Origin: Candidatus Paceibacter sp.
Lineage (GTDB): Bacteria > Patescibacteriota > Minisyncoccia > Phycocordibacterales > GCA-2747955
DNA length: 32,497 bases
Direction: 5' to 3'
Assembly (NCBI GenBank): GCA_014237915.1
Contig: JABACC010000011.1
Coordinates: forward strand, 1 to 32,497
Part shown: positions 5,718-32,497 of the stretch, piece after piece
How positions within the stretch are numbered: position 1 is the first letter of the stretch
Layout of the letters: each line of letters starts with the position of its first letter
Translations under genes and position numbers: made by a program
The notes under the pieces: generated by a model
Seen by the model: only the letters and a program-made list of their open reading frames with translations
Told to the model about the DNA's origin: nothing
The model's database searches: none

Positions 5718-6839
5718 TTATCTAACCGATTCGTATCCGCCTTTTTTTTTACCTTTTGTTAAAACAAATTGCCAAAGTTGAATATTTCGAGCTCTAAAAC
5801 CTCCAGCAAAAGAAGATAGGTAGTAATCCCACATTCTATAAAACCTATTATTGTAGTTATCTTTTATTTCTGGCCAACCTTTTATAAAATTATCTCTCCA
5901 AGCTTTTAAAGTTTTATTGTAGTCACTTCCAAAATTTTCTAAATCTTCAATTATGAAAAGATTTCTTACTTTTTTTTCTACTTGAGAAATTGAAGGCAGT
6001 ACTCCGTTTGGAAAAATATATTTATCAGTCCAAGCATCACTTCCTCTTTTGTCTACACTCCCTCCGATTGTGTGTAATAAAAATATTCCTCCTTCGTCTA
6101 AACACCTGTTTGCCACTTTAAAATATTCTCTGTAATTTTTTGGGCCAACATGTTCAAACATTCCGATAGATACAATAGCATCAAATTTTTCATTTACATC
6201 ACGATAGTCTTGAAAACGTATCTCAACTGGTAATCCCTCACATAATTTATTTCCAAGCTCAACTTGCTCTTTAGAGATTGTAATTCCCACAACTGAAACC
6301 CCGTATTTTTCAGCGGCAAATTTTGCAAAAGAACCCCAACCACAACCAATATCTAAAATTTTCATTCCTGCTTTTAATTTCATTTTTCTACAAATAAGAT
6401 CTAATTTATTTTCTTGAGCTTCATCTAAATTATTTGCATTTTTCCAATATCCGCAAGTATAAACCATTCTTTTGTCGAGCATTTTTTTATATAAATCATT
6501 TCCTGCATCGTAATGCTGCTCTCCCACTTCTAATGCTTTTGTTTTATTTTGTAAATTAAAAATTTTTGTTTTTAAAAAAAATATTAGATTTCCAAAAGTT
6601 TTTACTTTTTTATTTAAATCAGTCTTTAGTATTCTGTAGAAAAAACCTTCAAGATCTTGGCATTCCCATGCACCGTCCATGTATGACTCTCCTAGTGCCA
6701 ATGATCCTCCAGATATTGCTCTACTATAAAAAGAATTTTCTTTTATTTGCGGATCCCAAGGATTTTTTCCGTTTATCTCTACCCCTGTTTCTTCTAATAA
6801 TTTTTTTATTTTTTGTTCTGATTGTTTGTTTATATTCAT
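5718..6839 (-). CDS. cfa: Cyclopropane-fatty-acyl-phospholipid synthase family methyltransferase
   Basis: GESYMDGAWEC, EQHYDAGNDLYKKML, SAM motif ILDIGCGWGSFAKFAAEKYGV. Confidence 0.92.
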   Translation of the reverse strand: MNINKQSEQKIKKLLEETGVEINGKNPWDPQIKENSFYSRAISGGSLALGESYMDGAWECQDLEGFFYRILKTDLNKKVKTFGNLIFFLKTKIFNLQNKTKALEVGEQHYDAGNDLYKKMLDKRMVYTCGYWKNANNLDEAQENKLDLICRKMKLKAGMKILDIGCGWGSFAKFAAEKYGVSVVGITISKEQVELGNKLCEGLPVEIRFQDYRDVNEKFDAIVSIGMFEHVGPKNYREYFKVANRCLDEGGIFLLHTIGGSVDKRGSDAWTDKYIFPNGVLPSISQVEKKVRNLFIIEDLENFGSDYNKTLKAWRDNFIKGWPEIKDNYNNRFYRMWDYYLSSFAGGFRARNIQLWQFVLTKGKKKGGYESVR

Positions 6840-15374: not shown

Positions 15375-16250
15375 ATGCAAGAAAAAGAAAAAAAAGAAAT
15401 TGTTGAAAAACTCTCTATTTTAAAAAGCAAAACCTACTCTTCAGATTTTTGGAAAAATTCTCAAAAAGCTCAGGAGATTTTAAAAGAAATTGAATTTTTA
15501 AATAAAAAATTAAAAGGTGGCGGAAAATATGATCATCTTCCCTCTTTGGTGGCTATTTTTTCTGGTGTTGGCGGCGAAGACTCTGAAGATTTTGTAAAAA
15601 TTTTATTTGAAATGTATTTGGCTTTTTGCAACAAAAATAATTTTGATCTTTATGTTTTAGATGAGACAAAAAACTCAAAAGGTGGTTATAAAAATATTCA
15701 TTTTGAAATTAAAAATAAAAAATCTTACGGAAAATTAAAAAAGCAAAACGGAGTTCACCGAATGATTAGAAAATCTCCTTTCAATGCTAAAAATAAAAGG
15801 CAAACAAGTTTTGCTTTAGTGGAAGTTTTGCCAAAAATTCCAAAAACAGATTTTCATTTTAATGAAGAAAATCTTGAAATTTCTTTTTCAAAATCTGGCG
15901 GAGCCGGCGGTCAAAATGTAAACAAAAGAGATACGGCGGTAAGGCTGACTGACCCTGAAACTGAAATTTCTGTTTCTGTCTCTTCTGAGCGCTCGCAAGA
16001 GCAAAACAGAGAAATTACTTTAGAGCTTTTAAGGGCCAAACTTTTCAAAAAACACCGCGAAGACGAAAAGAAAAAAAAAGAAGGTTTACAAATTGATAAA
16101 AAATTAAAAATTGATTGGGGAAAACAAATTCGATCTTACATTTTTGATCCTTATAAAATGGTTAAAAATCATAAAACAGGAGAAGAGGTAAATAAACTTG
16201 AAGAAGTTTTAGAGGGAAATTTAAATATTTTTGAAAAAGAAAAAAAATAA
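15375..16250 (+). CDS. prfB: Peptide chain release factor 2 (N-terminally short)
   Basis: GGQ motif SGGAGGQNVNK; SPF tripeptide (GVHRMIRKSPFNAKNKRQTSFA) indicates RF2 rather than RF1. Confidence 0.9.
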   Translation: MQEKEKKEIVEKLSILKSKTYSSDFWKNSQKAQEILKEIEFLNKKLKGGGKYDHLPSLVAIFSGVGGEDSEDFVKILFEMYLAFCNKNNFDLYVLDETKNSKGGYKNIHFEIKNKKSYGKLKKQNGVHRMIRKSPFNAKNKRQTSFALVEVLPKIPKTDFHFNEENLEISFSKSGGAGGQNVNKRDTAVRLTDPETEISVSVSSERSQEQNREITLELLRAKLFKKHREDEKKKKEGLQIDKKLKIDWGKQIRSYIFDPYKMVKNHKTGEEVNKLEEVLEGNLNIFEKEKK

Positions 16251-17404: not shown

Positions 17405-17489
17405 GGAGATGTGTCTGAGTGGTTTAAGGTGCATCGTTGGAAACGATGTGTGCGGCAACGCACCGCAGGTTCGAATCCTGTCATCTCCG
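17405..17489 (+). tRNA. tRNA-Ser(GGA)
   Basis: Acceptor GGAGATG/CATCTCC, anticodon stem-loop CATCG-TTGGAAA-CGATG, long variable arm, T-arm GCAGG-TTCGAAT-CCTGT. Confidence 0.95.
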
Positions 17490-17535: not shown

Positions 17536-17630
17536 GGAGATGACAGGATTCGAAAAAAGCGAAATATATTTTTTCAAACAAAGTGAGAAAAAATTTGAGC
17601 GTCGGGGCAGCGAGTACTTAAATTTTTGAG
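17536..17630 (+). repeat. tRNA-associated repeat, copy 1
   Basis: GGAGATGACAGGATTCGAA (antisense of tRNA-Ser 3' end, 19 nt exact) followed by AAAAAGCGAAATATATTTTTTCAAACAAAGTGAGAAAAAATTTGAGCGTCGGGGCAGCGAGTACTTAAATTTTTG. Confidence 0.85.
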
Positions 17631-19276: not shown

Positions 19277-19483
19277 TTATAGCGCAAAAGTTGCTAATGA
19301 AGATCCTTGTCCTGCAAATACACCAAGGTTGATTTTCTTTGGGGTTTTCACAGTAGCCTCTTCCTTGCCTTGTCCAGCTAAAACATTCTTAACCAATAAT
19401 GAAGCTGTTGCCTTACCTTTTCCCTGTCCTGCAAAGAATGAGCCTGTTGCATAACTTCTGGTTCGTATTGTTTTTATATTCAT
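19277..19483 (-). CDS. Putative RiPP precursor peptide, three AGQGxxxAT repeats
   Basis: MNIKTIRTRSYATGSFFAGQGKGKATASLLVKNVLAGQGKEEATVKTPKKINLGVFAGQGSSLATFAL; 21 bp upstream of the YcaO gene, same strand. Confidence 0.8.
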   Translation of the reverse strand: MNIKTIRTRSYATGSFFAGQGKGKATASLLVKNVLAGQGKEEATVKTPKKINLGVFAGQGSSLATFAL

Positions 19484-19542
19484 AAATATTTATATATTTA
19501 ACTAATAATGGTTATATGATATACCTTTTTATAATTTTTGTC

Positions 19543-19557
19543 ATATTTGTCAAATAT
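19543..19557. promoter_or_regulatory. 15-bp palindrome, candidate operator
   Basis: ATATTTG-T-CAAATAT in the divergent intergenic region. Confidence 0.55.
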
Positions 19558-19600
19558 ATTTGCTATTTTAACTAAAAAAGTATATATTTATATATACATT

Positions 19601-19611
19601 ATTTGTCAAAT
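19601..19611. promoter_or_regulatory. 11-bp palindrome, candidate second operator
   Basis: ATTTG-T-CAAAT, same core as 19543-19557, centres 56 bp apart. Confidence 0.5.
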
Positions 19612-19614
19612 CAT

Positions 19615-20367
19615 ATGACTTATTCAAAAAATAAAGAAAATTTACTTAAAATATTAGAAAAAATAGGACTCTCGGAGAACGAATCAGCAGTCTATCTCTC
19701 CTCCTTGTCTCTTGGTCCAGCCAAGGTTGTTGATATTGCAAAAAACTCTGAAGTAAAAAGAACTACTGTGTATGCAGTTATTGAATCGCTACAACAAAAA
19801 GGACTTGTCCGTAAAGACATAGAAGGTTTTAAGAATATTTTTATACCTGAAGATCCTCTAAGGCTTGAAACAATCCTAGAGGAACGAAACAAAGAATTTC
19901 ATAATCTTTTACCAGAGCTTAAATCTTTATATAACTTGGAAGGATCTGATGCGATTATTAAATATTACGATACTCCAGAGGGAGTAAGAAATGTTTGGAG
20001 ACAAGTATTGAGTGAACTAAAAAATACGGATGATTATTTTGTAATTGGTGATCCTGAAATATATGCATCTGGAAACGAAAAATTCTTTAAAGATTTTATT
20101 AAAAAACGTATTCGCAAAAAATTAAATGCAAAACTACTATTAACTGAATCTGATCTTGCACGAGAATACCAAAAATACCAAGATAATTATAGTGAGGAGG
20201 TGAAGATACTGCCACATAATGTTTCAATTGATACAAATGTACTTATTACTAATAAACGAATAATTATTCAACAAATTATTGACCCTCATATGACAATTGT
20301 TATTGAAAATAAAAGTATTGTGGATCTTCAAAAGACTCTTTTCAATCTCCTATGGGAAAAATATTAA
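19615..20367 (+). CDS. TrmB-family transcriptional regulator
   Basis: N-terminal HTH (IGLSENESAVYLSSLSLGPAKVVDIAKNSEVKRTTVYAVIESLQQKGLV) and TrmB-like C-terminal domain; ATG at 19615 preferred over TTG at 19603, which lies in the palindrome. Confidence 0.88.
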   Translation: MTYSKNKENLLKILEKIGLSENESAVYLSSLSLGPAKVVDIAKNSEVKRTTVYAVIESLQQKGLVRKDIEGFKNIFIPEDPLRLETILEERNKEFHNLLPELKSLYNLEGSDAIIKYYDTPEGVRNVWRQVLSELKNTDDYFVIGDPEIYASGNEKFFKDFIKKRIRKKLNAKLLLTESDLAREYQKYQDNYSEEVKILPHNVSIDTNVLITNKRIIIQQIIDPHMTIVIENKSIVDLQKTLFNLLWEKY

Positions 20368-29287: not shown

Positions 29288-29325
29288 TTTTAATTTCTTA
29301 AAATATATTATACCAAAAATAAAAC

Positions 29326-29365
29326 AGGCGGCTAAAAATTTTCCTTGGAAAATTTTTAGCCGCCT
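29326..29365. repeat. 40-bp palindrome, left copy
   Basis: AGGCGGCTAAAAATTTTCC-TT-GGAAAATTTTTAGCCGCCT; exact reverse complement of 30883-30922. Confidence 0.9.
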
Positions 29366-29465
29366 CTTTTATTTTTTAATCTTATTGTAAATAAAAAACC
29401 TCCCTTCTTTGGGGGTAGAGGGAGACATATATTATTTATATAATCTCTCCTCTCTGGGCTGATGA

Positions 29466-30317: not shown

Positions 30318-30785
30318 CTAAGAGGTGCATGATGCGCATCCACCCGCATGACAGGTGCATTCCTTACAACACTGATAATTCCATATTACAGGATCTGGAT
30401 CACCAAAGTTATCACTATATAAATTCCATATTTTTTTAAAAGGAATCTCAAGAGATTGAAGATTATTCCCTAAAGCGGGTAAGTGATGTAAAAACCTCCC
30501 TGCAACATGATCACAAAAAATTGAGTAGTCTTTAGTGTGAAGTATATGAGTATGCCAAAACGGATCAATTTTTTGAGCTATAGGAAAAGATTCTTTGTAA
30601 TTAATGCAGATAGCTAAATACCGAGCATACTCCAAATGCATAGCGCTAATTGTCTCCTGATTATTGTATACATACTTATCTAACATGTATGATTTTATTT
30701 CACTAAAATTCCAATCAAGAATTTTTTCAACAGTTGACTGAATTGAGAAATCAGGTTGATCAAATTTTAATACAGACGATTTCAT
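30318..30785 (-). CDS. GRDP-like (glycine-rich-domain-containing-protein-like) protein with Cys-rich C-terminal tail
   Basis: IDPFWHTHILHTKDYSIFCDHVAGRFLHHLP motif; ends QCCKECTCHAGGCASCTS. ATG at 30785 (SD AGAGG) preferred over track start 30863. Confidence 0.7.
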   Translation of the reverse strand: MKSSVLKFDQPDFSIQSTVEKILDWNFSEIKSYMLDKYVYNNQETISAMHLEYARYLAICINYKESFPIAQKIDPFWHTHILHTKDYSIFCDHVAGRFLHHLPALGNNLQSLEIPFKKIWNLYSDNFGDPDPVIWNYQCCKECTCHAGGCASCTS

Positions 30786-30803
30786 AATTATTACCTCTTT
30801 TTG

Positions 30804-30883
30804 AAAGAACGATTGTGCGAAATTGCACAATTTAAATCTTATATTGTTTTTTTTTTTTTGCAAATTGTTGTAAAAATAAAAGA
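30804..30883 (-). promoter_or_regulatory. 80-bp repeated leader/promoter, copy A
   Basis: Identical to 32418-32497; contains ATTGTGC-N6-GCACAAT (30812-30831), a 13-nt A/T run and TATAAG. Confidence 0.85.
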
Positions 30884-30922
30884 GGCGGCTAAAAATTTTC
30901 CAAGGAAAATTTTTAGCCGCCT
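30883..30922. repeat. 40-bp palindrome, right copy (loop AA)
   Basis: AGGCGGCTAAAAATTTTCC-AA-GGAAAATTTTTAGCCGCCT. Confidence 0.9.
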
Positions 30923-30936
30923 ATTTTATTTTTTAA

Positions 30937-32178
30937 TTATAAAATTACTATTCCTGCTTTTTTAAAATTTATATTTTTTTTAATAAATTTTATTATATCA
31001 GTATTTTTTAAGCCTCTAAGTTCTTTAAGATACTCTTTCTTGTTGGGTAATGGGTAGTGGTTTAAAATTGAATCTTCATATCTTTCAAAAACTTCAAAAA
31101 CATTATCTTCTTTAGACAAAACGATTTTTTTAATCTCTTTTTTTAAAGACTCACAAAAACCCTTTTCTGAAAACTTTTTTTCTAAAAATATTAAAACTTC
31201 TTCAATTTCATTTAAGCTCTTTTTAACTTTTTCTCTTTGAGTTGAATACTGAATATTAATTTCTATATAATCATAATTTTTGGTGACTTCAGAGTCTATA
31301 TGATAAACCAATTTTTTATCTTTTTTTAATTTTTCATAAAGAAGATTATTTTCTCTTCCAGATAAGTAAAAATTTATCATGTCCAAAACAAGTATTTTTT
31401 TTAAATCTGCCTTACCTCTTTCTATATTAAAATGTATTAAAATATTAGAAAAATCCTTCCCTTTTTCCTCGTTAATAACTTTTGGTTTAAAATCTACAGA
31501 AGAATTCTTTTTTTTAATTAACTTTCTATTTTTTTTATCTTTTTTGATTATATTAAGATTATTTTTGGTAAAAGTTTTTACGATGTCTCTTTTTTTGAAA
31601 TCACCTATTAAAAAAAATGATGTGTTCTTAAAAATATACTTTTTTCTATATAAATTTTCTAAATCATTAATAGATATATTTTTCAATGTTTCTTTTTTCC
31701 CTAATATGTTATTTGAGATTGTTGTTTTATTATAAAATGAATTTACTAAAATATCTGATATGTTATCGGATATTTCCTTGTTTGAATTATAAAAATTTAT
31801 TTCATTAAAAATGTCTATTTTTTCCCCTTGAAGTCTCTCTTTAGAAATCAAAGCTTTATCTATTTTCAAACTTTTTAAATAAAAATTAATAACATCCTCT
31901 AAATATTTTTTTTCATGTTTAAAAGAGAAGACGGTATTGTCTCCGTTTGTGTAAAAATCTAAGTTTTTAATTTTTTTTTCTAAAAATTTTTTATTATCGT
32001 TAGAGCTGGAAATTAATTCGAAAAAAATATGTTCGGCAAGATGAGCAAGTCCTTGTTTGCTAACCGAATCCTCTCTGCTTCCTGAATGCACAACGAATCC
32101 AGAGAGCAAATATTTAGTTTTTACATTATTTAAAACAATAATCCTCAGGCCGTTCTCTAAATAAAATTCATCTACCAT
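30937..32178 (-). CDS. M16-family zinc metallopeptidase
   Basis: HxxEH motif GLAHLAEHIFFE with downstream Glu region NEINFYN; N-terminal LENGLRIIVLNN. Confidence 0.88.
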   Translation of the reverse strand: MVDEFYLENGLRIIVLNNVKTKYLLSGFVVHSGSREDSVSKQGLAHLAEHIFFELISSSNDNKKFLEKKIKNLDFYTNGDNTVFSFKHEKKYLEDVINFYLKSLKIDKALISKERLQGEKIDIFNEINFYNSNKEISDNISDILVNSFYNKTTISNNILGKKETLKNISINDLENLYRKKYIFKNTSFFLIGDFKKRDIVKTFTKNNLNIIKKDKKNRKLIKKKNSSVDFKPKVINEEKGKDFSNILIHFNIERGKADLKKILVLDMINFYLSGRENNLLYEKLKKDKKLVYHIDSEVTKNYDYIEINIQYSTQREKVKKSLNEIEEVLIFLEKKFSEKGFCESLKKEIKKIVLSKEDNVFEVFERYEDSILNHYPLPNKKEYLKELRGLKNTDIIKFIKKNINFKKAGIVIL

Positions 32179-32399: not shown

Positions 32400-32417
32400 T
32401 AGTTTGTTTCCCTTTAT

Positions 32418-32497
32418 AAAGAACGATTGTGCGAAATTGCACAATTTAAATCTTATATTGTTTTTTTTTTTTTGCAAATTGTTGTAAAAATAAAAGA
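32418..32497 (-). promoter_or_regulatory. 80-bp repeated leader/promoter, copy B (runs to window end)
   Basis: Base-for-base identical to 30804-30883; inverted repeat at 32426-32445. Confidence 0.85.

Follow-up and report, generated by a model that had tools for sequence, protein, structure and literature searches.

A peptide carrying three copies of the unit AGQGxxxAT, together with the co-oriented YcaO-family gene that follows it and a divergently transcribed regulator, is best explained, with a probability of roughly 0.6, as a small YcaO cassette of the RiPP type, in which the peptide would be a three-core precursor and the YcaO would modify each AGQGxxxAT unit. The peptide is thus probably a multi-core precursor, hitherto undescribed, from which a modified peptide is made. 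In the window (the whole stretch of DNA that was analysed, 32,497 nucleotides), the repeats, their constraint at the protein level, the adjacency to an intact YcaO gene and a unique pair of palindromes are directly observed (Table 1). CPR YcaO clusters (LAP) and YcaO precursors with repeats (thiovarsolin) have both been described already, and it is their combination here that looks new.

Table 1. Features of the putative cassette and its surroundings, in window coordinates.
Feature	Position	Strand	Basis
YcaO-family enzyme, 488 aa	17789..19255	-	Pfam PF02624, 8.2e-49 over residues 142-452
Putative multi-core precursor, 68 aa, Cys-free, three AGQGxxxAT copies	19277..19483	-	ORF list; shuffle and codon tests
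Repeat 3, AGQGSSLAT, residues 57-65	19289..19315	-	Motif search
Repeat 2, AGQGKEEAT, residues 36-44	19352..19378	-	Motif search
Repeat 1, AGQGKGKAT, residues 18-26	19406..19432	-	Motif search
Divergent promoter region, peptide/regulator interval, 131 nt	19484..19614	.	Sequence
Palindrome ATTTGTCAAAT, putative operator 1, immediately adjacent to the peptide's -35-like hexamer	19545..19555	.	Exact-site search
Palindrome ATTTGTCAAAT, putative operator 2, just 5' of the regulator's likely ATG	19601..19611	.	Exact-site search
TrmB-like winged-helix regulator, likely ATG at 19615	19603..20367	+	Pfam TrmB, 2.2e-15
PEP-synthase-like protein, 537 aa	20369..21982	+	Pfam PPDK_N and PEP-utilizers; PDB matches to PEP synthase

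The repeated peptide and its conservation

The original prediction had placed a Cys-free peptide with three AGQGxxxAT repeats at this locus, and both the coordinates and the three exact copies are borne out by the ORF list, with the reading frame located on the minus strand; the plus strand of the same interval is full of stops. The peptide (MNIKTIRTRSYATGSFFAGQGKGKATASLLVKNVLAGQGKEEATVKTPKKINLGVFAGQGSSLATFAL) runs from an ATG start to a TAA stop, contains no Cys, and has a computed pI of about 10.5. Its repeats are separated by the spacers ASLLVKNVL and VKTPKKINLGVF, and only FAL remains between the third copy and the C-terminus. The residue preceding AGQG, which had been described as hydrophobic and aromatic, is F, L and F in the successive copies, hence always hydrophobic but not always aromatic. 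The first 15 residues would be the leader, at a length that is very short for such a role. The peptide has no match in Pfam, NCBIfam, PADLOC or PHROGs.

Could such a repeat arise by chance, or from a recent duplication of DNA in an ORF that is not translated? Spurious ORFs of 50-90 aa are indeed frequent in this AT-rich window, but in 3000 composition-preserving shuffles no more than four shared positions were reached, in seven of them, as against six for the three 9-mers of the peptide, and the ORF occupies a promoter-proximal place ahead of the YcaO gene. As DNA, the repeats are three 18-nt copies with an identity of 78-83%. Between these copies, motif codons display no difference at first and second positions (0/36) and 10 differences at the 18 third positions (about 56%), a comparison that does not test conservation independently, since the motif columns were chosen for agreement. 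Outside the motif, first- and second-position differences amount to 14/18 in the x3 segment, and to 14/24 and 14/18 in the flanks. The absence of change at first and second positions, combined with frequent change at third ones, implies that conservation acts on the amino acids. The third-position divergence indicates that the copies either have a long history or were coded independently, and are held at the protein level. The motif is thus constant while the spacers vary, as had been proposed, and the codon pattern supports protein-level selection on the motif between the three copies. Chance or recent duplication in an untranslated frame is therefore very improbable, and the peptide, real and non-random, is very likely functional and paired with the YcaO.

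The peptide had no homologue in about 85,000 species genomes, in viral, plasmid and phage sets, or in about 500 sampled relatives, and its orphan status holds within these collections, which include no second genome of the genus. A degenerate DNA motif hits just the three sites of the peptide in the whole 567-kb genome, and gives one single chance-level match in 198 relatives; in a scan of the genome contig collection, it returned 50 single matches and no multi-copy small ORF. A looser motif, applied to 367 genomes from across the class (with the window's own genome among them), yielded only scattered single matches elsewhere. Viral matches to the degenerate motif were set aside as collagen-like GxT repeat proteins or chance. 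The AGQG repeat is present in none of the YcaO loci read in relatives. Another YcaO gene lacking a PHPF[PL] end, at L032 6580-7803 in a genome of the same family (G299), has a Gly/Ser-containing ORF of 45 aa just upstream on the same strand (6401-6538); this ORF was rejected as a relative of the peptide, its similarity not going beyond that of shuffles. The cassette is detectable solely through its internal repeats and gene order, and so shows the limit of homology.

The YcaO enzyme and its possible chemistry

The YcaO gene starts 21 nt past the stop codon of the peptide, and the two genes are probably co-transcribed. That the peptide adjoins a genuine YcaO gene, another element of the original prediction, is upheld by the PF02624 match and by conserved catalytic positions: seven columns are invariant in an alignment of 19 divergent YcaOs, including E157, E160, E262, R266 and E356, so the enzyme looks intact. 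In a sequence search of the PDB, the M. jannaschii YcaO comes first (2.8e-17), followed by MusD, TruD, LynD and the M. kandleri YcaO. A fold search with an AlphaFold model (mean pLDDT 74, below 50 for residues 1-94, built on a shallow 19-sequence alignment) also matched LynD, MusD and archaeal YcaO, with LynD and MusD ranking above the archaeal enzymes. Among NCBIfam models, SagD scores 127 bits and McrA-glycine thioamidation (TIGR03266) 117 of 365 bits, both under cut-off.

Residues 1-95 form an N-terminal region without domain match, whose first 70 residues are predicted, at low confidence, to form three strands followed by three helices and a further strand. An RRE (PqqD-like winged helix) was considered for this region and is not supported: the order of elements is RRE-like, with neither a Pfam nor a fold match. 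At its other end, the protein terminates in FYTTPILT, and the PHPF[PL] ending of most aligned CPR YcaOs is absent. That ending is of the PxPxP type, a motif described as canonical for azoline-forming YcaOs (PMC12338566).

The role of the precursor, the site and chemistry of its modification, its processing and its regulation are what we infer from this arrangement. The 68-aa peptide would be a precursor with three cores; the YcaO, using ATP, would activate an amide of the backbone within every AGQGxxxAT unit and install an identical modification three times. At one of the Gly residues of AGQG, we favour a thioamide or some other backbone change that is not an azoline; this preference rests on the lack of a PxPxP-type end, of Cys, of a nitroreductase and of an E1 partner, together with the archaeal-type similarity of the enzyme. 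Release by cellular proteases would then give three short products, each with its own x3 and flanking residues.

The main alternative chemistry leaves the precursor role unchanged, and consists of the cyclodehydration of the conserved Thr, giving a methyloxazoline at the A-T of each unit and thus a Cys-free linear azoline peptide. This outcome is possible, if clearly the less probable one: A-T is present in all three copies, the SagD-type model has slightly the top score and azoline-type clusters are frequent in CPR (PMC7298704), but the C-terminus is not of the PxPxP type, and neither a nitroreductase nor an E1/ThiF partner adjoins the YcaO. In the ORF list and by Pfam, no SagB-type nitroreductase was found beside the YcaO, and the cassette likewise includes no E1/ThiF partner, protease or exporter; a search for TfuA (PF07812) across the genome, 96% complete, gave no match.

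Should the cores instead be sought in the variable spacers, with AGQGxxxAT acting as a recognition and cleavage element, as in cyanobactin precursors? The constancy of the motif, set against spacers that differ in length and sequence, would fit such an arrangement, and the cyanobactin heterocyclases LynD and TruD, as well as MusD, are among the folds nearest to that of the YcaO. Nevertheless, nucleophiles for a YcaO are few in the two spacers (no Cys, one Ser, one Thr), and repeat 3 lies at the C-terminus with FAL alone behind it, so that the third copy flanks no further core. We regard spacer cores as unlikely.

It is also rather improbable that the peptide is a small protein of ordinary type rather than a precursor, and that the target of the YcaO lies elsewhere, for example in a ribosomal protein. 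YcaOs with non-RiPP targets are known, the E. coli YcaO being a factor for S12 methylthiolation, and the lack of homologues, of a known leader family and of processing genes would agree with this explanation. Against it stand the constraint on the repeats and the order of peptide and YcaO, and the S12-type YcaO model, whose score of 41 bits lies far below its cut-off (700).

Divergent regulator and neighbouring genes

In the preferred three-core reading, the TrmB-like regulator would control the peptide-YcaO pair through two palindromic operators. Exact ATTTGWCAAAT sites number only two in the 567-kb genome, and both fall in the peptide/regulator interval. From composition, 2.1-2.9 sites would be expected in the genome as a whole; the probability that both lie in this interval, about 1e-7, is a guide only, the pattern having been picked post hoc. 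This placement is what operators of a regulator transcribed divergently would be expected to show, and the TrmB-like protein may bind them. Promoter-like hexamers of the peptide lie at 19544-19516 on the minus strand, with 10/12 matches, in an interval that is not richer in such sites than shuffles are.

The PEP-synthase-like protein encoded after the regulator combines ATP-binding fragments with a phosphohistidine mobile domain, and its middle part has no assignment; a PEP/pyruvate domain was not found in it. Its domain order recalls rifampin phosphotransferase, and it is sparse in relatives (5/119, including its own genome). A role of the gene in tailoring or immunity is possible; in the relatives seen, it is unlinked to YcaO. 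On the YcaO side, the 3' end of a tRNA-Ser occurs at 17470-17488 and 17536-17554, as an inverted copy about 50 nt downstream. An origin of the locus from a mobile element at this tRNA-Ser was discarded, because only the 3' end is copied, in inverted orientation, and no direct repeat of it lies in the window.

Further away in the window, 30318-30863 encodes a protein of 181 aa whose tail, CCKECTCHAGGCASCTS, is Cys-rich, next to an M16-family peptidase gene (30937-32178); the two could be another modified-peptide pair. A near-identical 85-nt repeat occurs upstream of two unrelated genes (30799-30883 and 32413-32497), and a near-perfect 66-nt hairpin is duplicated at 29315-29380 and 30872-30937.

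Related loci and known systems

YcaOs of relatives in the same order, class and phylum share 25-30% identity with the window enzyme in their matched parts, and searches of the genome, viral, plasmid and phage collections brought up no closer YcaO. The YcaOs of relatives mostly adjoin a SagB-type nitroreductase, and small proteins rich in Gly/Cys/Ser or in Pro/Cys are often encoded close by, which agrees with the CPR LAP clusters reported previously (PMC7298704); LAP-type loci were seen among relatives at L018-L030 and L036-L038. Several loci of the same order (L018, L020, L025, L028, L030 and others) encode a different YcaO type of about 490-515 aa with a PHPF[PL] C-terminus, which adjoins SagB-type nitroreductases; small proteins with Gly/Cys/Ser-rich tails are found close to it (e.g. 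L020 5146-5547, L025 9059-9400). In L114 and L124 (genomes G880 and G919), YcaO, SagB and M16 peptidase genes stand in a row, and the small Pro/Cys-rich peptides upstream share an ADAKEF segment. Gene neighbours differ between relatives, as read on short contigs.

Relatives also provide an observation on the genetic code. In L148/L138 (G189) and L149/L139 (G222), from the family of the window, an in-frame TGA aligns with Trp, as in KIYI*EGLMF versus KIYIWEGLMF; the in-frame TGA positions that fall in good alignments comprise 5 Trp and 3 Phe, suggesting that UGA may be read as Trp in these two genomes. UGA=Trp, with RF2 absent, has been described for the patescibacterial family JAKLIH01 (PMC13092985), with which the family of the window is not equated here. 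The window genome keeps RF2 (15375-16250), and a TGA stop ends just one of the 30 listed ORFs, a doubtful one. Set against the possible UGA=Trp in its relatives, this RF2 and the rarity of TGA stops imply that the family may be midway through the change.

Among characterized systems, the CPR LAP clusters likewise combine a patescibacterial YcaO with a small precursor. However, a nitroreductase adjoins YcaO in 89/110 of them and their precursors contain Cys/Ser (PMC7298704), neither of which holds for the window cassette, and the LAP-type YcaOs aligned mostly bear the PHPF[PL] end that the window YcaO lacks, the latter being 17-22% identical to them in the full alignment. The thiovarsolin system of Streptomyces varsoviensis resembles the cassette in its YcaO adjoining a precursor, VarA, of several (up to five) imperfect repeats. 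These repeats release short linear peptides, as is proposed here, and a cluster-specific protease is absent in both cases; varA, varY (YcaO) and varT (TfuA) are enough for thiovarsolin B (PMC6511847). By contrast, the cores of VarA are APR/GPR and its system includes TfuA, while the window peptide carries AGQGxxxAT units in a genome without TfuA.

A subset of archaeal YcaOs thioamidates without TfuA (PMC6511847). These enzymes (M. jannaschii MJ1094, M. kandleri) are stand-alone like the window YcaO, provide its closest solved structure by sequence, and act on a backbone Gly (McrA glycine thioamidation), the same type of site as proposed for the window YcaO; their substrate is McrA and no repeat peptide, though, and the window enzyme carries about 95 additional residues at its N-terminus. 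LynD, TruD and MusD, the top fold matches, are also comparable in that cyanobactin precursors can be multi-core. At about 640-780 aa they are larger, and they contain a further, N-terminal partner domain that the window YcaO lacks; the cores they act on are flanked by defined recognition sequences.

More speculatively, AGQGxxxAT could be a self-contained recognition-plus-core unit, and the Cys-free precursor could be backbone-modified threefold by a stand-alone, partner-free CPR YcaO under its own TrmB-type switch, which would constitute a new class of YcaO product; we hold this extended proposal only tentatively. If the peptide is modified, a peptide pathway of no more than two genes and a regulator would persist in CPR bacteria, whose genomes are near 0.6 Mb, and it would be distinct from the LAP type with linked nitroreductase that has been reported for these organisms. 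A substrate that is short, repeated and poor in leader, paired with a single enzyme, would moreover be handy for asking two questions: how does a stand-alone YcaO recognize its substrate, and which atom does it install?
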